From Rhizobium sp. Leaf262 (GTDB taxonomy: Bacteria > Pseudomonadota > Alphaproteobacteria > Rhizobiales > Rhizobiaceae), in contig NZ_LMMM01000017.1 in NCBI RefSeq assembly GCF_001422245.1, positions 67,541 through 131,540 of the forward strand: a stretch of 64,000 bases of DNA, in the 5' to 3' direction. Every line of letters starts with the position of its first letter. Positions within the stretch are counted from its first letter, which is position 1. Below, one piece after another: positions 6,614 through 64,000 of this stretch. The position numbers and the translations under genes are program-made. The notes under the pieces were generated by a model, which saw only the letters and a list, made by a program, of their open reading frames with translations, made no database searches and was not told where the DNA came from.

Positions 6614-7438
6614 CTATCTGTCGTAACGAAAACGGACCCGCATCAAAGCCAGTGGCCTTTCGTCCGCGCCGAATAGAGCGACATCATGACCCCACTTCAG
6701 CCTTCGGAAGCTAATATCCGTCCACTCTCCCGGCTCCACATTGCCAAGATAGATCACATGTCGGGATGAAACCATTCCGATGTGCGTCTCGCCTGCTTGA
6801 AACAACGCTCGATCTGCCAAAGCGCTGTAGCTTGGGAAATAGAGAAGGCCGGCAGCATTGAAATCCGTCCCCGGGCACGGGAGAACACGCTGCCTTTCCG
6901 GCATGCTGGCACGCATGAAGACCTGATTACGGATGTCGCGCGAGACGACTGACAAATGCTCCGCGACCCGGCGAATTGCGAGAGGGGCCTCTGGCGGCAT
7001 CGCCAACGCTCGTGGGCTCCGGCGGACGACCGAACGATTGACGCCCGGTTCGGTGCGCCCTACGAACGTCGAGACTAAAACCATCCGCCCCACCTCGACG
7101 CCATCTGCGGTGATTGTGAGACGGGACGATAAGCGTCCATGACCGACGCGGTAGAGGTCTGCAGACAGGGTCAACTGCCCGCCCAGACGAGGTAATTCGG
7201 GCCTTGCCAGTTTGACGCTGGTTGCGCAGAAAGCTGCATAAAGTGGCTCGCCATCTGAGCAGGTAAAAACTGCGTCCCGTTGCCCCATGGCTCGTGCGAT
7301 GAGCTGCCAGTGCATATCGCCGGCCCGTCGCTTCAGCCATTGCTCAGACAAGCCACGGTAGCCCATTTCCGCCATTCCGAGGACATGTCTTTCTTCAAGA
7401 CCGGACGCCTGAGAGCGCGCAATAGGAAGGGTGGTCAT
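6614..7438 (-). CDS. LnmK/Pnap_2097-like acyl-thioester protein ending the Nit1C operon
   Basis: A 274-residue protein from the ATG at 7438, which overlaps the nitH stop as ATGA, so it is translationally coupled. The sequence fits the Pnap_2097/LnmK-like family: hot-dog-fold proteins including a bifunctional methylmalonyl-CoA acyltransferase/decarboxylase in polyketide synthesis. Visible features are the N-terminal GMAEMGYRGLSEQWLK, a beta-rich middle (LTLSADLYRVGHGRLSSR), and FNAAGLLYFPSYSALADRA in the second half. I have not verified catalytic residues. A much longer in-frame reading to 7780 lies over nitH and is rejected. Being last in an otherwise standard Nit1C cluster suggests it acts on an acyl intermediate or product of that pathway; this is inference. 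Confidence 0.7.
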   Translation of the reverse strand: MTTLPIARSQASGLEERHVLGMAEMGYRGLSEQWLKRRAGDMHWQLIARAMGQRDAVFTCSDGEPLYAAFCATSVKLARPELPRLGGQLTLSADLYRVGHGRLSSRLTITADGVEVGRMVLVSTFVGRTEPGVNRSVVRRSPRALAMPPEAPLAIRRVAEHLSVVSRDIRNQVFMRASMPERQRVLPCPGTDFNAAGLLYFPSYSALADRALFQAGETHIGMVSSRHVIYLGNVEPGEWTDISFRRLKWGHDVALFGADERPLALMRVRFRYDR

Positions 7439-8706
7439 GCCGCCAGCTTGCCCTTTTGACGAGCTATGATCTGTTCGGACAGATAGCGACTGTCCTCGTC
7501 GATGCCGAGAAATCGTCCAGATCCCCAGGTGTTCAGCCACCCAAGACCGATGAAGTACAGGCCGGGCACTTCGGTGACGCCGCGATTGAAAAGCGGTTTG
7601 CCGCGGTCGTCGAGACAATCGACCTTCAGCCAGGAATAATCGGGCCGGAATCCGATCGCCCAAATAATCGAGGTGATACCTGCCTCGCGAAGATCCACGC
7701 TGGTTATCTCCCGTTCCGGTCGCCAGACTTTCTCGAAAGGTGGCTCTTTCAGTGCATCTATGTTCTGGGTCGAAATCCATGCGTCGATCTGCTTGCGGAT
7801 ACCCAGATAGCTGCGGTCCGCATCGTCAAGGTTTTTCTCCAGGTCGGGAAGAAAGGCCATGGTCGTGCCGTCGGCTCCAGCGAGCGAACCGTAGAGGTGA
7901 ACCCCCTCCAGCGCATATTTGCGCAGGTCGATTTCCTTGCCACCGTCACGTCCCGACATGTAATGGTTGGTCTGGGTAAGAGCCTTGACCGGATCTGGAT
8001 GTCGATCGATCGTGACCGCGTAGGTGCCGGCATCGTAAAGCCAGTCGGTTGCGTCCCGACCGCGGTATTTGCGGGGACTGCGCGGGGCCGGACCGACAGC
8101 GAGGTGAACGGGCCGACCTTCCAGATGGAAATCATCCATGATCTGCACGCCCGACTGTCCGGTCCCGACGATCAGTGTTCCGCCGTCCGGCAATTGCGCG
8201 GGGCGCCGGTAGTCGCGCGAATGTATCTGCAGAATGGAGGGATCCAGATCGCCAGCGTAGGGGGGCAGGATGGGGTTGTCATAACCGCCCGTTGCGATGA
8301 CCACCTGATCAGCGGTCATGTCGCCGGAGGTGGTCGCGATCAGATACCCGCCACCGTCACCAGGTGAGACCTTTGTTACGTCCACACCCTCGCGCAGCGG
8401 CGGATTGAAGCTTTCGGCAAAACCGTCCAGGTAATCGACGATTTCGTGTTTCAGCATGAAGCCGTCCGGATCCGTGCCTTTGTAGGGCCAGCCAGGCAAC
8501 CGGCACTGCCAGTTTGGCGTGACCAGACAGAAGCTGTCCCAGCGATTGTTGCGCCAACTCTCGAACCGTTGACGGCGCTCAAGAACGACATGCTCGACCC
8601 CTTCCTGCATGAGATACCAACTGACCGAAAGGCCGGCCTGGCCGCCTCCGATGATGAGAACTGGAACGTGTGGTACAGTGCTGTCGGTCATAACGAACCC
8701 TTTCAT
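7435..8706 (-). CDS. nitH: MSMEG_0569-type flavin-dependent oxidoreductase (Nit1C NitH)
   Basis: A 423-residue flavin monooxygenase-like enzyme. The FAD Rossmann motif GGGQAG is at residues 20-25, a second nucleotide motif GTGQSG at 181-186, and an FMO-like IHSRDYRRP linker just before it. ATG at 8706 overlaps the nitG stop (ATGA). A second possible ATG at 8691 has AAAGGG six bases upstream and could be the true start. In Nit1C clusters this is the last core gene (nitH). The substrate is unproven; the family is presumed to oxidise a nitrogenous or nitrile-derived intermediate. It is coupled to the next gene by another ATGA overlap. Confidence 0.88.
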   Translation of the reverse strand: MKGFVMTDSTVPHVPVLIIGGGQAGLSVSWYLMQEGVEHVVLERRQRFESWRNNRWDSFCLVTPNWQCRLPGWPYKGTDPDGFMLKHEIVDYLDGFAESFNPPLREGVDVTKVSPGDGGGYLIATTSGDMTADQVVIATGGYDNPILPPYAGDLDPSILQIHSRDYRRPAQLPDGGTLIVGTGQSGVQIMDDFHLEGRPVHLAVGPAPRSPRKYRGRDATDWLYDAGTYAVTIDRHPDPVKALTQTNHYMSGRDGGKEIDLRKYALEGVHLYGSLAGADGTTMAFLPDLEKNLDDADRSYLGIRKQIDAWISTQNIDALKEPPFEKVWRPEREITSVDLREAGITSIIWAIGFRPDYSWLKVDCLDDRGKPLFNRGVTEVPGLYFIGLGWLNTWGSGRFLGIDEDSRYLSEQIIARQKGKLAA

Positions 8707-55523: not shown

Positions 55524-55559
55524 GCTCACTTGGATATTAATATACTACTTCCTGTGAGC
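55524..55559. promoter_or_regulatory. Inverted repeat upstream of the GntR gene
   Basis: GCTCAC (55524-55529) and GTGAGC (55554-55559) flank an AT-rich centre with the palindrome ATATTAATAT (55534-55543). It lies 69 bp before the GntR start and may contain the promoter and an operator. Confidence 0.4.
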
Positions 55560-55627: not shown

Positions 55628-56398
55628 ATGAGCGAAGCCCGCAAGAAGCGCTCGATCGCCGGTGTCACTTACCCCGCCTATGAGCGCGCAGCCGCCCCAC
55701 GCGCTGCAACTCTGATTTACGACACGCTACGCAACGACATCATTTCACTGCGTCTCAAGCCGATGGACCTTCTCAATGAGAAAGAACTGCAGGCACAGTT
55801 CGGCGTCAGTCGCACACCAATCCGCGAGGCGATCCTGCGCCTTTCCGACGATGGGCTCGTTGACGTCTTTCCGCAAGCAGGGACCTTTGTTTCACGAATT
55901 CCACGCAGGGCACTTTATGAGGCGATCCTAGTGCGCAAGGCACTGGAGGATACGATCGTCTCTATCGCCACCGAGAAGATAACGCCGGCCGGCATTCGCT
56001 CACTGGAGCGCAATCTAGATGATCTCAGAGCCTGCGTGCGTGACGGTAATTTCGACTCCTTCCACGTTGTTGACAACGATTTTCATAAGCTGATCAGTGA
56101 TATCGCCGGCTTCCCTGGTATGTGGGCGATCATCCAGCAGGTGAAGGTTCATTCCGATCGCTACCGCCTGCTGACACTGCCGCAGGAAGGGCGTCTTGCG
56201 CGCGTCATCGAGGAGCATTCGGGAGTAATCGACTGTATGAAGGCCGGCGACAAGGCCGGTGCAGCCGCCGCCATGGGCTTTCACCTCGGCAAGTTGCTCG
56301 GCGAAGTCGAGAAGGCCGTGTTCTGGGATCCGAACTATTACATCGAGGATGCAAATTCTCCGCTGGCATCCAAAAAAGAGAAGGAGAAAAATCAATGA
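55628..56398 (+). CDS. GntR-family (FadR/FCD subgroup) regulator
   Basis: A 256-residue protein. The N-terminal winged helix is LIYDTLRNDIISLRLKPMDLLNEKELQAQFGVSRTPIREAILRLSDDGLVDV. The FCD helical domain has metal-type residues in VVDNDFHKLIS, EEHSGVIDCM and GFHLGKLLGEV. FCD regulators typically sense sugar acids or other carboxylates. Its stop overlaps the kduI start as ATGA, and it heads the operon kduI-permease-permease-ATPase-binding protein. This suggests it represses that operon until a uronate-type ligand binds. Confidence 0.93.
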   Translation: MSEARKKRSIAGVTYPAYERAAAPRAATLIYDTLRNDIISLRLKPMDLLNEKELQAQFGVSRTPIREAILRLSDDGLVDVFPQAGTFVSRIPRRALYEAILVRKALEDTIVSIATEKITPAGIRSLERNLDDLRACVRDGNFDSFHVVDNDFHKLISDIAGFPGMWAIIQQVKVHSDRYRLLTLPQEGRLARVIEEHSGVIDCMKAGDKAGAAAAMGFHLGKLLGEVEKAVFWDPNYYIEDANSPLASKKEKEKNQ

Positions 56399-57231
56399 CG
56401 ATTGATGTCCGTCATGCGTCCCATCCAGAGGCCGTTCGCGACTACGACACTCAAACGCTACGCCGCCATTTTCTAGTTGAGACGATTTTCTCAGGCGGCG
56501 AGATTCGGCTCACCTATTCGCATTATGACCGAATGGTCATTGGTGGCGTGACGCCGCTCGGCGAAAGCCTGACGCTTGGCGCACCGAACCAAATCGGTCA
56601 GGAGACCTTCCTGGCGGAGCGGGAACTAGGCGCGCTGAACGTCGGTGGCGCAGGCCGAATCATTGTCGATGGCAAGAGCCATGCGCTGGCGAAATATGCT
56701 TGCCTCTATGTTGGAAAGGGTGCCAAGGATGTCCTCTTCGAGAGTGACAACGCTGGCACCCCGGCAAAATTCTACCTTGTCTCTGCGCCGGCGCATCAGG
56801 CGCATCCGACGGTTCTCCTGACCCGCGACAACGCCCGCCATCTGGTCACAGGCGAGGCGGCGACCGCCAACAAGCGCTCGATCTACCAGTTCATTCACCC
56901 GGGAGTCTGCCAGTCCTGCCAGCTGACCATGGGCTTCACCATGATCGAGCAGGGTAGCGTCTGGAACACAATGCCATCGCACACCCATGACCGGCGCATG
57001 GAAGCATATCTCTATTTCGACCTGGAAGCCGATCAGCGCATCTTTCACTTCATGGGCGAGCCGCAGCAGACCCGCCACATGCTGATCGCCAACGAGCAGG
57101 CAGTCCTCTCTCCGTCCTGGTCTATCCACTCGGGTGTCGGCACCAAGAATTACAGCTTCATCTGGGCGATGGCCGGTGACAACAAGAGCTTCACCGACAT
57201 GGACCACATCGCCATCGCGGATCTGAGGTAA
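56395..57231 (+). CDS. kduI: 5-dehydro-4-deoxy-D-glucuronate isomerase
   Basis: A 278-residue KduI, the same length as the E. coli enzyme. It converts 5-keto-4-deoxyuronate (from unsaturated pectin, heparinoid or other uronates) to 2,5-diketo-3-deoxygluconate. The zinc site is seen in MPSHTHDRRMEAYLYF (two His and a Glu) and SWSIHSGVGTKNYSFIW (His). Further family marks are YDRMVIGGVTPLGE and CQSCQLTMGFT. AAGGAGAAAAATCA precedes ATG at 56395, which overlaps the regulator's stop. No kduD, kdgK or lyase gene is in the window, so later steps are elsewhere. Confidence 0.95.
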   Translation: MTIDVRHASHPEAVRDYDTQTLRRHFLVETIFSGGEIRLTYSHYDRMVIGGVTPLGESLTLGAPNQIGQETFLAERELGALNVGGAGRIIVDGKSHALAKYACLYVGKGAKDVLFESDNAGTPAKFYLVSAPAHQAHPTVLLTRDNARHLVTGEAATANKRSIYQFIHPGVCQSCQLTMGFTMIEQGSVWNTMPSHTHDRRMEAYLYFDLEADQRIFHFMGEPQQTRHMLIANEQAVLSPSWSIHSGVGTKNYSFIWAMAGDNKSFTDMDHIAIADLR

Positions 57232-57360
57232 GACGGGCTGCCCTGTTCCTAACACGGGAAGCATCGAACGACGTTCACGGTACCGTCATCCCCGTCGATG
57301 ACGTCTGGCTCACATAATAAAACATTGGCACCGGAAAAACCCGGAGCGCAGGGAGGAATT

Positions 57361-58044
57361 ATGAATTATCAGTTCGATTTCGGGGCACTGTTGCCCTACT
57401 GGCAGGACTTTCTATCCGGTGCTCTGACGACAATCGAGATCACGGTGTTTACGGTTATCATCGGCATGGCGATCGGTGTAGCCTGCGCTATTGGCCGCCG
57501 TTCGAACTCAGCCATCCTGCGAAGCATTGTCAGCATCTATATCGAGACGGTTCGCAACACGCCGTTCATCGTCCAGATATTCTTCATCTTCTTCGGCCTG
57601 TCGTCGATCGGTTTCCGGTTGCCAATCATCGCGGCCTCAGTATTCGCGATGGTCATCAATGTCGGGGCCTATACCGCCGAGATCGTTCGCGCCGGCATGG
57701 ATTCTATCCATCCTAGCCAAATCGAGGCCGCAGAAGCGCTAGGTCTTTCGAAGCTCCAAATCTACCGCGACATCATCCTTCTGCCGGCGATCGAGCGCGT
57801 CTATCCCGCACTCTCGAGCCAGTTCATTCTGATGATGCTGTCAACCTCGATCTGCTCGCAGATCTCGGCTGAGGAGTTGACGGGCATTGCTAACAACATC
57901 CAGTCGAACACCTTCCGCTCGCTGGAAACCTATTTCGTCGTGGCGCTTCTCTACATCGCGATCACCTATCTGATGCGTGCTGCCTTTTTCGGGCTTGGCC
58001 TCATCGCATTCCCGCGCCGCCGCCGGCTCGGGCTCGGCGTGTGA
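57361..58044 (+). CDS. Polar amino-acid-type ABC permease (first)
   Basis: A 227-residue HisM/GlnP-type inner-membrane permease with about five helices. The PAAT signature is SIYIETVRNTPFIVQIFFIFFGL and the ATPase-contact EAA loop is EAAEALGLSKLQIYRDIILLPA. GGGAGGAATT precedes ATG at 57361. It forms a heterodimer with the permease encoded from 58052. Though the family carries mostly amino acids, the operon links it to KduI, so a uronate or similar acid may be the substrate. Confidence 0.92.
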   Translation: MNYQFDFGALLPYWQDFLSGALTTIEITVFTVIIGMAIGVACAIGRRSNSAILRSIVSIYIETVRNTPFIVQIFFIFFGLSSIGFRLPIIAASVFAMVINVGAYTAEIVRAGMDSIHPSQIEAAEALGLSKLQIYRDIILLPAIERVYPALSSQFILMMLSTSICSQISAEELTGIANNIQSNTFRSLETYFVVALLYIAITYLMRAAFFGLGLIAFPRRRRLGLGV

Positions 58045-58051
58045 GGTGATG

Positions 58052-58705
58052 ATGCTCGGCGCTTTCTCGACCAATCACCTTTTCTACCTGCTCGACGGCC
58101 TGCTCTGGACGGTCGTGCTCTCCGCGCTCGCCTTCATTCTTGGCGGCCTTGCCGGCTTTTTCGTCATGCTGGCCCGGATATCGCGCTTCCGCTGGCTACG
58201 GCGCACGGCGCTCATCTATATTCAGATCGTCCAAGGCACACCGCTGCTGATCCAGATGTTCCTGCTATATTTTGGGCTTGGCGTGTTCGGCGTCTCGGTG
58301 CCGCCGCTGGTCGCCGCCGGTCTCGGAATGATGGTCTATTCGAGCTCCTATCTCGGCGAGATCTGGCGCGGCTCGGTGGAATCCATCGCCAAGACCCAAT
58401 TTGAAGCTGCCGAATGCCTTGGGCTCTCGCGATGGCAGGCACTGCGGGACGTCATCCTGCCACAGGCGCTGAAAATCGCCACGCCACCGACAGTCGGTTT
58501 CCTTGTGCAGCTCGTCAAGAACACCTCCCTCGCATCCGTCGTCGGCTTCTTGGAGCTGACGCGTGCAGCGCAGGTCATCAACAACTCCATGTTTCAGCCG
58601 TTTCTGGTCTTCGGCATTGCAGCGCTTTTCTACTTCTGCGTCTGTTTTCCGCTGTCGGTCTGGAGCCGTTCGCTCGAGAGGAAACTCAATGCCGGCCGTC
58701 GTTAA
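58052..58705 (+). CDS. Polar amino-acid-type ABC permease (second)
   Basis: A 217-residue permease starting MLGAFSTNHLFYLLDGLLWTVVLSALAFILGG. It has the PAAT segment LIYIQIVQGTPLLIQMFLLYFGL and the EAA loop EAAECLGLSRWQALRDVILPQA. GAGGTG lies just before two adjacent ATG codons (58049 and 58052); the second has better spacing. It follows the first permease by a few bases and overlaps the ATPase gene by 17 bp, so the three are co-translated. Confidence 0.92.
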   Translation: MLGAFSTNHLFYLLDGLLWTVVLSALAFILGGLAGFFVMLARISRFRWLRRTALIYIQIVQGTPLLIQMFLLYFGLGVFGVSVPPLVAAGLGMMVYSSSYLGEIWRGSVESIAKTQFEAAECLGLSRWQALRDVILPQALKIATPPTVGFLVQLVKNTSLASVVGFLELTRAAQVINNSMFQPFLVFGIAALFYFCVCFPLSVWSRSLERKLNAGRR

Positions 58706-59417
58706 ACTCACCAATGTCGTCAAGCGCTTCGGTGTCCTGGAGGTGCTGAAAGGCGTCTCGTTCGAGATCAACACCGGCGAAGTGGTTGCGCTGATCGGCC
58801 AGTCCGGTTCTGGCAAGAGCACGGCCCTTCGCTGCATCAACCGGTTGGAGACGATCCAGGACGGAACGATAGAGGTCTGCGGCCATCACGTACAAGATCC
58901 GGAGCTAGATTTGAGGGAGCTGCGCCGCGACATCGGCATGGTGTTCCAGAGCTACAATCTCTTCCCGCACATGACGGTTGCCGAAAACATTATGTTGGCA
59001 CCGCGTCGTGTCAAGTCGATGCATAAGGACGAGGCGTTCCAGATCGCGAGGGAGGTTCTCGCCAAAGTTGGCTTGTCGGAGAAGATCGATAATTATCCCG
59101 AGCAGCTTTCGGGTGGCCAACAGCAGCGCGTGGCGATCGCCCGCTCGCTCGCCATGCAGCCGAAGGTGATGCTGTTCGATGAAGTGACCTCGGCGCTTGA
59201 TCCGAAGCTAACGGGCGAGGTGCTGCGCGTTATGGAAGATCTTGCGCGGGGTGGCATGACGATGATCGTCGTCACTCACGAGATGGGCTTTGCCAAGCGG
59301 GCAGCCAACCGCGTCATCTACATGCATACCGGAAAAGTTTGGGAGACGGGAGGGGCTGATATCCTCTCAAATCCGCAGACGCCGGAATTAAAGGAATTCA
59401 TGGCCGAAGAGCTCTGA
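58689..59417 (+). CDS. Polar amino-acid-type ABC ATPase
   Basis: A 242-residue GlnQ-type ATPase. Walker A is GQSGSGKST, Q loop MVFQSYNLFPHMTV, signature LSGGQQQRVAIARSLA, Walker B VMLFDEVTSALDPKL, and switch VTHEMGF. GAGAGGAAACTCA precedes ATG at 58689, inside the end of the permease gene. It powers the transporter formed by the two preceding permeases and the binding protein encoded next. Confidence 0.95.
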   Translation: MPAVVKLTNVVKRFGVLEVLKGVSFEINTGEVVALIGQSGSGKSTALRCINRLETIQDGTIEVCGHHVQDPELDLRELRRDIGMVFQSYNLFPHMTVAENIMLAPRRVKSMHKDEAFQIAREVLAKVGLSEKIDNYPEQLSGGQQQRVAIARSLAMQPKVMLFDEVTSALDPKLTGEVLRVMEDLARGGMTMIVVTHEMGFAKRAANRVIYMHTGKVWETGGADILSNPQTPELKEFMAEEL

Positions 59418-59476: not shown

Positions 59477-60274
59477 ATGCCGACAAGAATAATTTCGAAA
59501 CTGGCACTTATCGCTGGAGCTGGCCTGCTGGCCTTTGCATCCGCCGCCAATGCCGACGTGCTTGATAATATCAAGAAGGCGGGCAAGGTGCGAATCGCAG
59601 TGGCGATGGGCACCCCCGAATATTCCTTCGTTGATGAAAACCTGAAGCCGACAGGCTCTGACGTCGAAACCGCCAAGCTGATAGCCAAAGATCTGGGCGT
59701 CGAGCTCGAACTGGTGGAAATCACAAATGCTGCGCGCGTTCCCTCGGTACAGACGGGCAAGGCTGACATGGTGGTTTCTTCGCTCGGCATCACAGAGGAA
59801 CGCAAGAAGGCGATCGATTATTCGGTCCCTTACGCGACGCTCGCTCTCGTCGTTGCTGGCCCGGCCGACGTCGCGATCAAGGATTATGCAGATCTCGACG
59901 GTAAGCGCGTCGGTGTGACCCGCGCGACGACCAACGACCAGGACATCACGGCAAAGGCAAAGGGTGCCGATGTCGTCCGCTTCGAGGACGACGCGACACT
60001 GATCACTTCTGTCGTCTCCGGCCAAGTCAATATCTTGTCCAGCCAGTCGGCGGTCATCAACGGGATCAACAAGAAGATGACGAGTAATCTTTTGCAGGTG
60101 AAGTTCACTCAGAAGGAAACCAATCTTGGCATCGGGATTCCGAAGGGTGAAACCGCGCTGAAAGGCTGGCTCGACGGATGGGTCAAAACCAATTTCGACA
60201 ATAAGGTGTTGCGCGACATCTATCGCAACTACCACAATGCCGAGTTGCCCGACGATCTGACATCGCGCCAGTGA
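59477..60274 (+). CDS. Periplasmic binding protein (SBP family 3) with altered ligand site
   Basis: A 265-residue binding protein. The signal peptide is MPTRIISKLALIAGAGLLAFASAANA, and the mature protein runs to GITEERKKAIDYSVPY. The carboxylate-binding Arg (R109) of amino-acid receptors is kept. In the second lobe, GQVNILSSQSAV aligns with the usual GRVDA...D segment, so the Asp that holds the alpha-amino group is Gln190. That argues for a carboxylate ligand without an alpha-amino group. It follows the transporter ATPase by 59 bp; GAGAGGAGTCTCAT is the ribosome site. Confidence 0.92.
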   Translation: MPTRIISKLALIAGAGLLAFASAANADVLDNIKKAGKVRIAVAMGTPEYSFVDENLKPTGSDVETAKLIAKDLGVELELVEITNAARVPSVQTGKADMVVSSLGITEERKKAIDYSVPYATLALVVAGPADVAIKDYADLDGKRVGVTRATTNDQDITAKAKGADVVRFEDDATLITSVVSGQVNILSSQSAVINGINKKMTSNLLQVKFTQKETNLGIGIPKGETALKGWLDGWVKTNFDNKVLRDIYRNYHNAELPDDLTSRQ

Positions 60275-61113: not shown

Positions 61114-62601
61114 TTAAGTGCCACGAGCAATCCGGCCTTCGCTCATGTAGAGGTGCCCCATGACCCTCATCCCAGATAAGGCTGTCACCTTCCGCGTCCC
61201 GATGGACCGGAACTCTTCAGACACCGGCTCGATCTTGACCGGCGCATCCATTGTCAATTCCCGCAACACGCGGCCTGTCATTGTCCGCGGCTGTGGAATA
61301 CCGAGCAGCGACAGGATGGTTGGCGCGATGTCGGTGATGGCACTTGGCGTCGTGGAAACCCTTCCTCGTCCCAGTCCTGCCCCGTATCCGGCCAGAACTG
61401 CAGACAGTTCGCCCCGATGTAGACCGCCGTGGGTGCCGCCGCCCGGGCGCAGATTATAGTCTCCAGCATCGTAATACACCGAACCCATATCGCCGGCCAC
61501 GTCATCGTCCACCGTATTCCCGAGATGGACGAACAGATCGGGAGCACGGGCACCGCCGGCACCGAGTAGCTCCAAAGCCAAGCTTCCCTCGACACGACCG
61601 TGGTTGCTCGCAGGCGCTCCCGCGCAGCTGAAGGCTCCACCGAACCATTCCTGCTCCGTCATGAAGCTCGCCACCTCTTGCAACAAGATGGGATCGTCTT
61701 TCCTCAGCCAGATGCCGGCGGCACGCCCTGGTCGCACCAGCATGTCGGTCGCCGGGTCTGCGAATGAAGCAGCCGCCTTGAACCCGGCTGCACATAAAGA
61801 ATCCGCGACGGAAACCAGACCGCCGATCGTGACGTGACCATGGTCGGAGACCACCAAAAGCGCAATGCTGTCGCGTTCGGGCTGCGCCTCGCGCCAAGCC
61901 ATAAGTGCGCCGACGACTTCATCGCAATGCTGCATCTTCTCGCGCAGCTGATCGGATCCCAGTCCGTAGAGATGCGCCGCGCTATCCACTTCAGTGCACC
62001 ACAGGATGTTGACTGCCGGTTTGCTGTAAGGCCATACTTCCTGCTCGAAGACCTTCAGAGCAGCCTTCGGGCCATCTGCGGACACGCCCCCTGCTGGAAT
62101 CTTCAGCGAGCGGTGGACACGCGCTGCAAACGCATGCGGATGGGCCGTCTGAGGATGGCGGACATTAAACCCGACTTGATCGCGCTTGGCACCTCTCCAG
62201 TTCAGGGCGGGCAAGACGCCGGGCCCGCTCGACGCGATGACCGCGAAGGGTCTGCCAACGCGGCGGAGCGTTTCCGACAGTGAAATCGCTTCAACCAGCT
62301 TTCCTTCAAGCCGCTCATCGGCCGCGTACCAATCATGCGTCGTCTCGGTGAATATTTGCTCAGGGAACCCGTCACGTACATAGAACTGATTTCCGGCGAT
62401 CCCGTTGATCTCAGCGGCAGAGCCTGTTGCTAGGGCGGTTAGCGCACCGCGAGTCTCGCTCGGAAACACCGTCTTATGATGGGTGCTCCACGTGCCGGCC
62501 CGCGCCAAGTCGACAAGGTTGGGCATCGTTATGTCATCGACCAGATCTGGTCGCAGTCCGTCGATCCCCATGACCACGACGTGGCGTACCTCATTGGGCA
62601 T
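61114..62601 (-). CDS. Alkaline-phosphatase-fold phosphodiesterase/nucleotide pyrophosphatase
   Basis: A 495-residue enzyme of the type I phosphodiesterase/nucleotide pyrophosphatase group. The metal Asp is in VVVMGIDGLRPDLV, the nucleophile region is KTVFPSETRGALTAL, further metal ligands are in WCTEVDSAAHLYG and VVSDHGHVTIGG, and the final His is in GGGTHGGLHRGEL. No signal peptide is seen, so it is probably cytosolic. Its ATG overlaps the DeoR gene's stop by 11 bp. The family cleaves phosphodiesters or phosphonoacetate-type bonds; beside an ABC importer gene it may act on the imported organophosphorus compound. Confidence 0.9.
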   Translation of the reverse strand: MPNEVRHVVVMGIDGLRPDLVDDITMPNLVDLARAGTWSTHHKTVFPSETRGALTALATGSAAEINGIAGNQFYVRDGFPEQIFTETTHDWYAADERLEGKLVEAISLSETLRRVGRPFAVIASSGPGVLPALNWRGAKRDQVGFNVRHPQTAHPHAFAARVHRSLKIPAGGVSADGPKAALKVFEQEVWPYSKPAVNILWCTEVDSAAHLYGLGSDQLREKMQHCDEVVGALMAWREAQPERDSIALLVVSDHGHVTIGGLVSVADSLCAAGFKAAASFADPATDMLVRPGRAAGIWLRKDDPILLQEVASFMTEQEWFGGAFSCAGAPASNHGRVEGSLALELLGAGGARAPDLFVHLGNTVDDDVAGDMGSVYYDAGDYNLRPGGGTHGGLHRGELSAVLAGYGAGLGRGRVSTTPSAITDIAPTILSLLGIPQPRTMTGRVLRELTMDAPVKIEPVSEEFRSIGTRKVTALSGMRVMGHLYMSEGRIARGT

Positions 62602-63394
62602 TGTTGTAATCCTTAACGGTTGCGGGATAGATCACCCGAACGCCAGCCTCGTTGAAGGCTTCGTCGAAAACCGGCGGGGGTGGCTCATCGGTGACGATCG
62701 TCCCGATTTCGGAAAGTGGTGCCGAGATATAGGAGCCGGGCGCTCCGAACTTGCTGTGGTCCGCGACGACAATACGGCGGTGGCTGCGCTGGAAGAGCAA
62801 GCGCTTCATGTACTGCAGGTATTTTCCCGACTCAACCAAACCATGCACTGGATGGATGCCATATGCGGCGATGATCACGGTATCGAAAACACATTCAGAA
62901 ATCGCGTCCAGCACCTGTTGGCCAGTAAGCGCCCCGTCGGCGTAGTCGTATTCTCCGCCCGTCAGCGTGACACGATGTTGCACACCGCCATGCAAGGCCT
63001 CCGCGATAGCAGGCATGTTGGTCATAACCGACATCGGACTGCCCTCGTCCAGGGCTTTGGCGACGGATAGGGTCGTACTGCCGTGCGTCATGAAGATCCA
63101 CCCGTCTCGTCCGACCAGCTTTGCCGCCAATTCCCCGATTGAGGCCTTTTGGCTACTCAGGCTGTTGACGCGCATCGAGATAGGCGCGGCCCGCGCCGTC
63201 GGTATTGCGCCACCATGGACGCGGGTGAGAAGCCCGTTCTTTTCCAAGCTCGCGAGATCACGGCGAATGGTCTCCATGGAGACCGAGTACCGCTCGGCCA
63301 TCGCAGCGATACTGACACCATCTTCTGCTTCCAGAAGGTCTGCAATGGCTTTAATGCGACTTGCTGCCGGTATTCTCGCCACGGGCCCTCCCAT
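62591..63394 (-). CDS. DeoR-family transcriptional regulator
   Basis: A 267-residue DeoR/GlpR protein. The helix-turn-helix is RIKAIADLLEAEDGVSIAAMAERYSVSMETIRRDLASLEKNGLLTRVHGG. A sugar-phosphate isomerase-like sensor domain follows, with WIFMTHGSTTLSVAKAL, VTLTGGEYDY and IVVADHSKFGAPG. Such proteins sense phosphorylated metabolites. The start is uncertain: 63394 gives the usual N-terminal length, 63433 is possible, neither with a strong site. It is co-transcribed with the phosphodiesterase gene and divergent from the binding-protein gene. Confidence 0.92.
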   Translation of the reverse strand: MGGPVARIPAASRIKAIADLLEAEDGVSIAAMAERYSVSMETIRRDLASLEKNGLLTRVHGGAIPTARAAPISMRVNSLSSQKASIGELAAKLVGRDGWIFMTHGSTTLSVAKALDEGSPMSVMTNMPAIAEALHGGVQHRVTLTGGEYDYADGALTGQQVLDAISECVFDTVIIAAYGIHPVHGLVESGKYLQYMKRLLFQRSHRRIVVADHSKFGAPGSYISAPLSEIGTIVTDEPPPPVFDEAFNEAGVRVIYPATVKDYNNAQ

Positions 63395-63744
63395 TCCCAA
63401 ACAATCCGAGTGTAAGTATCGCTGGGTGTTCATAGTGTGATGTTTTGTGGATTAATCGAGACTAAGCTGCCTGTCAATCCACTACGGCAGCATCGACTTT
63501 AAACATGTGTCGCACCGCTGAAATCAATAGGATTTTTGATGCGGGACGCTGTATCCAGCAAAAGCTAATGGGTTGGTTCAGCGATTGTTCCGACCGGGCA
63601 ATGACTAGCACGATGTCGGAATATCAATTAAAACCAAATTTAGCCTCGTAATGTCACATTTCCGTTAACAGCCATGCCTATACCGATTTGCGATCGACGC
63701 CTTGCTGGTGGAGTAACGCGCCGCGTTTCAAGAAAGGAATTTAA
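63395..63744. other. Divergent promoter region, DeoR operon and binding-protein gene
   Basis: This 350-bp stretch has no gene and is AT-richer than its flanks, as expected for two outward promoters. I found no clear repeat operator. Confidence 0.5.
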
Positions 63745-64000
63745 ATGAACTGGAAGAGACTGGCATATTGTGGAGTAGCGTCCCTGATCGGGCTGCCCTC
63801 CATCGCACAACCGGCAGGCATGGATGAACTCGTCGCGGCGGCAAAGGCCGAAGGTCAGCTTACCGTGATCGCCGTTTCCCATGATTGGTGCGGCTACGGC
63901 GCACTGATCCAGGGCTTCAAGGACAAGTACGGCCTCACCGTGAACGAACTCAATCCGAACGCTGGTTCAGGTGAAGAGTTGGCAACGATCAAGGCCAACA
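63745..64000 (+). CDS. ABC transporter solute-binding protein (family 1), N-terminal part
   Basis: Eighty-five residues from ATG at 63745 to the window end. A signal peptide, MNWKRLAYCGVASLIGLPSIAQP, is followed by MDELVAAAKAEGQLTVIAVSHDWCGYGALIQGFKDKYGLTVNEL. The start matches ferric-type/AfuA-like and phosphonate- or polyamine-type binding proteins. AAAGGAATTTAA precedes ATG. It is divergent from the DeoR/phosphodiesterase operon, so a phosphorylated ligand (sugar phosphate, phosphodiester or phosphonate) is likely; the rest lies outside the window. Confidence 0.85.
   Translation, partial: MNWKRLAYCGVASLIGLPSIAQPAGMDELVAAAKAEGQLTVIAVSHDWCGYGALIQGFKDKYGLTVNELNPNAGSGEELATIKAN

Follow-up and report, generated by a model that had tools for sequence, protein, structure and literature searches.

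The polar-amino-acid-type (PAAT) importers, including those of LAO/ArgT, GlnH, HisJ, ArtJ and TcyJ, are the closest described relatives of the transporter analysed here, which shares with them the fold of the binding protein, the permease family, the ATPase type and the arginine that holds the ligand carboxylate. The Agrobacterium binding proteins NocT, OccJ and SocA display the same fold at approximately 18% to 23% identity to the protein under study. Genes of opine binding proteins are linked to opine genes. The noc region, for instance, is mentioned in connection with opine genes in PMC4192606. In LAO, Ser72 and Asp161 are described as contacting the amino group of the ligand (PMC5740067). 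NocT, which carries Gly and Ser at these 2 places, is reported not to bind arginine, probably because both side chains are missing (PMC4192606); OccJ has Asn at the place of Asp161, yet micromolar binding of arginine is described (PMC5740067).

The SBP_3 fold is also that of cyclohexadienyl dehydratases, which have likewise departed from amino acids. Among importers of pectin products, TogMNAB is also of the ABC type, but belongs to a different ABC subfamily and carries oligomers, not monomers. Its uptake of pectic oligomers feeds DHU metabolism (PMC12838403). The TRAP hexuronate transporters, such as that of the binding protein STM3169, whose carboxylate contact is expected to be an Arg (PMC7660916), probably have the same metabolic job as the importer discussed here, but are of an unrelated type and are not ATP-driven. 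KduI and KduD form the pathway that leads to 2-keto-3-deoxygluconate (PMC6353982).

We analysed a stretch of 64,000 nucleotides from Rhizobium sp. Leaf262 (hereafter, the window), in which a same-strand run of genes ends with that of a family-3 solute-binding protein (Table 1). Based on the gene content and residues described below, the run probably encodes a PAAT-type ABC importer for free 5-keto-4-deoxyuronate or 4,5-unsaturated uronate, which would feed KduI and KduD.

Table 1. Coordinates of the features of the operon in the window and the evidence for each
Feature	Coordinates	Strand	Evidence
Putative operator site for GntR/FCD (TTGGATATTAATATACTACTTC)	55530..55551	+	Conserved in the ortholog alignment, ahead of the GntR gene
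GntR/FCD transcriptional regulator	55628..56398	+	PF00392 70.5 bits and PF07729 86 bits, over cut-offs
kduI, 5-keto-4-deoxyuronate isomerase	56395..57231	+	NF002091 equivalog 434.4 bits (cut-off 250)
Remnant, 3' end of deleted kduD, between kduI and permease 1	57237..57320	+	blastn, local alignment
Permease 1, polar-amino-acid type	57361..58044	+	TIGR01726 HEQRo_perm_3TM 99 bits (cut-off 42.2)
Permease 2, polar-amino-acid type	58049..58705	+	TIGR01726 98.8 bits (cut-off 42.2)
ABC ATPase, GlnQ-like	58689..59417	+	PF00005 132.7 bits
Solute-binding protein of family 3 (R109, G104, Q190)	59477..60274	+	SBP_bac_3 (PF00497) 97.8 bits (cut-off 26.4), fold, residues

Fold and pocket residues of the binding protein

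The binding protein, 265 amino acids long, is under the cut-off in all 14 NCBIfam amino-acid families listed (best score 106.1 against 256.35); the equivalogs compared were ArgT-type, GlnH, TcyJ, HisJ, ArtJ/I and EhuB. An AlphaFold2 model built from a 15-row alignment, in which 4 members of a set of distant loci (L073-L123) served as distant rows, has a mean pLDDT of 85.1 and a pTM of 0.78 and matches solved structures with Z scores of 27.4 (5eyf) and 27.0 (5t0w) and an rmsd of 2.2 to 2.4 over 223 to 233 residues. Amino-acid binding proteins, along with an ancestor of cyclohexadienyl dehydratase, rank highest, and the opine binding proteins SocA, OccJ and NocT are found at Z scores of 24 to 26; the predicted fold gives no discrimination of the ligand. 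Since permeases and an ATPase of its own are encoded alongside, a binding protein is a simpler reading than a cyclohexadienyl dehydratase.

Pocket residues were compared in a MAFFT alignment of the binding protein with 90 homologous ORFs from the fetched loci and 6 E. coli K-12 control proteins (GlnH, HisJ, ArgT, ArtJ, ArtI and TcyJ), which was repeated with 97 rows; the counts are limited to the clade of the binding protein (33 rows), its cousins (35 rows) and the E. coli controls. Clade membership was taken from a tree of 97 rows, in which the 33 rows with Gln at column 190 form a clade (SH-aLRT 96) with a Caballeronia protein as its sister (fork 99). Two plasmid loci (L203 and L204) joined by similarity and were then checked at column 190. 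For the tree, 8 rows of the first alignment were dropped (the duplicate L001, the two of L072 and extra ORFs of L052, L010 [two], L011 and L013), 8 annotated cousins were added, and ORFs longer than 330 amino acids were trimmed to their last 300 residues. Due to the quick tree search and the long outer branches, the placement of deep rows is unsure, and the fork with L019 and L020 is open.

The initial annotation held that the carboxylate Arg is kept as R109 and that the second-lobe Asp is replaced by Gln190, and both assignments agree with the alignment. R109 corresponds to R77 of LAO/ArgT, a column with Arg in 33/33 clade rows, 35/35 cousins and 6/6 controls. Q190, which in the model ends a strand (186-190) directly ahead of a helix (191-200), corresponds to LAO D161, where all 6 E. 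coli proteins have Asp and every one of the 33 clade rows on the tree has Gln, down to approximately 56% identity. The 2 plasmid loci also carry Gln190, and its presence in 35/35 clade loci rules out a sequencing accident or a private oddity. The loss of Asp stands for this protein but is not unique to it: both Asp and Gln are absent from column 190 in the 35 cousins examined, which have Ser (17), Ala (13), Thr (3), Val (1) or Glu (1). Judged from this column, the loss marks a clade wider than the Gln190 branch, and, being common to all 35 cousins, it argues against alpha-amino acids and not specifically for uronates. By itself, moreover, it leaves amino acids possible, since OccJ with Asn binds arginine.

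Other positions of the pocket differ from LAO as well. Ser72 is matched by G104 (Gly in 32/33 clade rows and Ala in 1; Ser in 33/35 cousins), so that the combination of Asp at LAO 161 with Ser, Thr or Asp at LAO 72 is replaced by Q190 and G104. Tyr14, Phe52 and D11 of LAO are matched by T46, N84 and A43, the last being Ala in 33/33 clade rows and Asp in 32/35 cousins. Two arginines are extra in comparison with LAO, namely, R87, present in 68/68 clade and cousin rows against Leu, Ile or Met in 6/6 E. coli controls, and R149, present in 67/68 of these rows and in none of the 6 controls. PMC5740067 tables 16 pocket positions of LAO, and at the 15 that were mapped, the binding protein has no acidic residue (A43, T46, Y49, N84, S101, S102, G104, R109, L122, L124, T148, T151, T152, N153 and Q190; LAO F191 is the one position outside the mapping), which speaks against a shift of the Asp to another of these positions. 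NocT (Ser) and OccJ (Asn), like the binding protein, lack the amino-group Asp, and their cargo is described as other than a plain amino acid; unlike the binding protein, they are described as keeping Tyr and Trp at the places of LAO Tyr14 and Phe52. Among the fetched paralogs encoded in the genome that contains the window, column 190 has Asp in L007, L009, L012, L013, L014 and L015 and another residue in L002-L006, L008, L010 and L011, the alignment of the most distant rows being unsure.

The conserved seven-gene block and the kduD deletion

Both the GntR/FCD regulator and kduI, which had been assigned to the operon at the outset, are confirmed by family models (Table 1), and KduI aligns almost end to end with the solved KduI structures 1ywk, 1x8m and 1xru. 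The best NCBIfam match of the ATPase is GlnQ (318.9, under the equivalog cut-off of 379). The start of permease 1 at 57361 fits the orthologs better than an upstream in-frame ATG, which would lengthen the protein by 21 residues (57298-57360) into the end of the kduD remnant.

The presence of kduI alone in the operon proved to be the product of a deletion, which the initial annotation missed. The full block in the orthologs is GntR-kduI-kduD-permease-permease-ATPase-binding protein, and there is no intact kduD next to kduI in the window. When the window is compared by blastn with the ortholog locus L045, the alignment jumps from 7088 to 7761 inside kduD (7089-7844); approximately 672 bp are gone and 84 bp are left. 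Local alignment of this remnant, extended over the spacer that precedes the permease, reached a score of 93; the highest score among 500 shuffles was 28. Thus, kduI is alone in the window because kduD was deleted in this genome, and a model in which kduI naturally stands alone is ruled out, since the orthologs carry kduD and the window keeps its remnant. In the window, a once complete 5-keto-4-deoxyuronate module is present in decayed form.

The block was searched for in 37 loci plus the window; the distant loci L073-L123 (n = 51, nine of them inspected) are outside both the block count and the tree, and the fragment locus L072 is outside the counts. kduI is found in 35/35 loci of the Gln190 clade and kduD in 34/35, the window being the exception, although, because the clade is one lineage, these loci represent approximately one evolutionary event and not 35 tests. 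Searches by tblastn with the window genes in 28 loci (the window, L045-L068 and L124-L126) recovered kduI from all 28 and kduD from all but the window, both genes are present in 5/5 contexts (L182-L186) of the clade rows L020, L019, L018, L016 and L017, and both are present in the plasmid loci L203 and L204. L017 and L066 are identical and probably derive from a single genome. The GntR gene adjoins the block in 34/35 loci (L054 being without it), and the order kduI-kduD-permease-permease-ATPase-binding protein is kept in 33/35. In L182, kduD has moved behind the binding protein gene; the linkage outlasted the rearrangement. The same seven genes are annotated on plasmids of Sinorhizobium sp. 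B11, of Phyllobacterium sp. 628 and T1293, and of Paracoccus alcaliphilus, in records that label the permeases and the ATPase as an amino-acid ABC transporter. The fragment locus (L072 10001-10282, Rhizobium sp. 2MFCol3.1) encodes a C-terminal 96-residue piece of the binding protein (89% identical) with Pro at column 190 and no adjoining kdu genes; the same strain also carries a complete block (L048).

Flanking ORFs of 23 loci yielded no family present in more than 5 of them, those in 5 being ABC ATPases and plasmid replication genes. This survey listed families found in at least 4 loci and held 3 of the 10 loci (L055, L057-L063, L068 and L124, out of 28) in which a hydantoinase B/oxoprolinase gene lies downstream of the block; this gene is characteristic of a single sub-branch. 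In 2 loci (L126 and L184), the block is followed by a gene for a zinc alcohol dehydrogenase.

The conserved unit itself contains no amino-acid or opine enzyme. It is highly improbable that the cargo is still an amino acid, or an N-substituted one resembling an opine, and that the kdu linkage is incidental. The family, fold and permeases are all of the amino-acid type, the opine binding proteins are also described as lacking the Asp (Ser in NocT, Asn in OccJ), SocA binds sugar-amino-acid conjugates according to structure titles, and the hydantoinase B/oxoprolinase family could act on an amino-acid derivative, which counts against the uronate reading. These points are opposed by the enzyme content of the unit, by the linkage to kduI in 35/35 loci and by the replacement of LAO Tyr14, which stacks against the side chain of the ligand, and of Phe52, a ligand contact.

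The unit is also devoid of a lyase, an unsaturated uronyl hydrolase and UxaC, which suggests that the cargo is a monomer directly usable by KduI. Import of oligomers by the PAAT-type importer is disfavoured by the same absence of a lyase and an unsaturated uronyl hydrolase. Two GH88/GH105-family genes (L188 and L189) are located on other contigs of the window genome, one adjoining a GH28-like ORF (judged by eye) and the other in an apparent ABC-transporter operon. By eye, neither product has an obvious signal peptide; from these contexts, oligomers may also be taken up by a separate route, alongside the importer, and be cleaved in the cytoplasm.

Additional kdu genes are present elsewhere in the window genome. 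Contig C16 carries a full-length kduD (L150 8311-9072; TIGR01832 398.2 bits, cut-off 338.85), the product of which is 75% identical to KduD of Sinorhizobium sp. B11; by eye, it lies near an ORF resembling a deiminase of histidine degradation, and no kduI was recognised beside it. A second kduI on contig C1 (L149 8039-8854; NF002091 413.8 bits) shares 51% identity with the first, and no kdu gene was recognised next to it. The best match in a search for KDG kinase scored 262.8 bits, below the 400-bit cut-off. The kduD of contig C16 may stand in for the deleted operon gene. The loss of approximately 672 bp of kduD could mean that the module is decaying in this genome, but that the window copy is already a decaying, possibly non-functional remnant is barely credible, given that the other six genes have open frames, that the permeases, ATPase and binding protein are 94% to 96% identical to those of L045, and that the candidate operator is intact and a kduD is available elsewhere in the genome.

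Cousins, comparator loci and the probable cargo

The initial proposal that a polar-amino-acid-type importer is used here for a uronate gains support from the linkage to kduI and kduD and from the position of the sister protein, which together point to such a cargo. The Caballeronia sister (L127) adjoins a gene that matches four solved sequences at 305 to 319 bits, three of them named uronate dehydrogenase. Among the more distant cousins, those of Diaphorobacter and Cupriavidus adjoin genes that resemble tagaturonate reductase, galactarate/altronate dehydratase and KDG kinase and score under the respective NCBIfam cut-offs, and that of Variovorax adjoins altronate dehydratase and aldehyde dehydrogenase genes. 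Others are found beside enolase-superfamily dehydratase-like and RraA genes, or beside an RpiB-family isomerase and a GarR-like reductase. Except for uronate dehydrogenase and the RpiB and RraA families, these enzyme names stem from annotation or below-cut-off scores. kduI was found in none of the 14 cousin loci tested, and the KduD matches there are short-chain dehydrogenases 28% to 36% identical. The cousin loci, as well as four kduI comparator loci (L177-L180), were hand-picked, not random. On a plasmid of Agrobacterium vitis (L153 7964-9726), genes for two cousin binding proteins stand in tandem, together with those for an RpiB-family isomerase and a reductase resembling GarR; the substrate is possibly a short sugar acid.

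The galactarate/altronate-dehydratase-like, enolase-superfamily dehydratase-like and KDG-kinase-like neighbours of the cousins would also fit import of another sugar or keto acid (2-keto-3-deoxygluconate, an aldonate or an aldarate), with the kdu genes as a shared downstream branch. This appears improbable, because KduI and KduD act upstream of 2-keto-3-deoxygluconate and are needless for it, and the seven-gene unit contains neither a KDG kinase nor a dehydratase.

A TRAP transporter lies beside kduI-kduD in 3 of the 4 comparator loci (L178, L179 and L180), which belong to S. meliloti and Paracoccus yeei, both with uxaC, and to Agrobacterium larrymoorei. R. etli (L177) has kduI-kduD without a transporter, and L187 has them without one of the PAAT type. 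A cupin encoded in L178 had no NCBIfam match at E 1e-10, so that the name KdgF would be a guess. A TRAP binding protein encoded in the window genome shares 80% identity with the S. meliloti one beside kduI-kduD; the PAAT-type importer may thus be redundant or carry other cargo.

The sister beside uronate dehydrogenase, together with a report on E. coli KduI, makes ordinary hexuronates the main rival: D-galacturonate and D-glucuronate would be imported and processed by KduI and KduD as side substrates. E. coli KduI is said to aid the breakdown of both (PMC3578941), but their isomerisation by KduI is a hypothesis in that source. The seven-gene unit, moreover, is without a uronate isomerase, uronate dehydrogenase or aldonate enzyme, a search of the window genome with S. 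meliloti UxaC, run without a positive control, returned no match, and the genome encodes a TRAP binding protein closely related to the one that neighbours uxaC. On balance, we consider import of ordinary hexuronates unlikely.

Under the preferred reading, import of the deoxyuronate or its unsaturated precursor, periplasmic 5-keto-4-deoxyuronate, or a 4,5-unsaturated uronate opening to it, would be captured by the binding protein, with R109 holding the carboxylate. The grips on the amino group are lost (Ser72 to Gly104 and Asp161 to Gln190), and the neutral polar side chains of N84, T148, N153 and Q190 would face hydroxyl and keto groups. The ABC transporter would carry the free monomer from the periplasm into the cell, where KduI would isomerise the imported acid and KduD would reduce the product to 2-keto-3-deoxygluconate. 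On a broader reading, which we consider evenly balanced, the clade with the Asp lost and with R87 and R149 would be a family of sugar-acid importers, and the Gln190 branch an ATP-driven importer of free 5-keto-4-deoxyuronate with the job that TRAP transporters apparently have in related bacteria.

Each part falls within a known family, and the novelty lies in the pairing with kduI-kduD and in the clade. The open-licence literature searched yielded no account of a deoxyuronate importer of the PAAT type. In Pseudomonas, fitness-based studies have reportedly assigned amino-sugar acids as cargo to PAAT-type transporters, and this would make the step to sugar acids smaller. The available text of an RB-TnSeq study (PMC9007349) contains no PAAT uronate importer. 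If the proposed cargo is correct, amino-acid-transporter labels are wrong for the Gln190 clade, the same is perhaps true of the Rhizobiales and Burkholderiales cousins, and the pattern of a replaced Asp161 with R87 and R149 could flag mislabelled importers. There would then be an ABC route for a monomer produced from pectin by lyases, beside the TRAP transporters and oligomer importers, which would be relevant to feeding on plant cell walls by root-associated bacteria.

Regulator, distribution and neighbourhood

Upstream of the GntR gene, an alignment of 24 rows shows the core ATAYTAATATAYTACTT to be kept in all 18 of the Rhizobiaceae type; the five of the Phyllobacterium type carry a related block rich in AT, and Paracoccus has a partial block. 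When up to 3 mismatches are allowed, the degenerate 22-mer has one site in the genome (5.05 Mb), against none for the reversed pattern as control, and its 16-mer core occurs once in the window, against 0.01 expected. We infer that the block is a local repressor site. The single genomic site favours a single-operon regulator and disfavours a wider regulon; the adjacent GntR/FCD repressor would probably sense the ligand and control only the transporter operon.

Matches to the binding protein at E 1e-45 were found in 35 of 297 genomes of the family. The best matches of 30 of these 35 were placed on the tree, six of them in the Gln clade (G000, G063, G149, G159, G241 and G280), and the remaining 5 genomes matched at 35% to 37% identity, off the tree. 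None of the 5 other genomes of the same genus had a match at this threshold. The block behaves as an accessory module, partly plasmid-borne.

Downstream of the binding protein gene, a gene of the type I phosphodiesterase/nucleotide pyrophosphatase family adjoins a DeoR-type regulator on the minus strand (61114-63433), and an apparent further binding-protein gene begins near 63746 on the plus strand.
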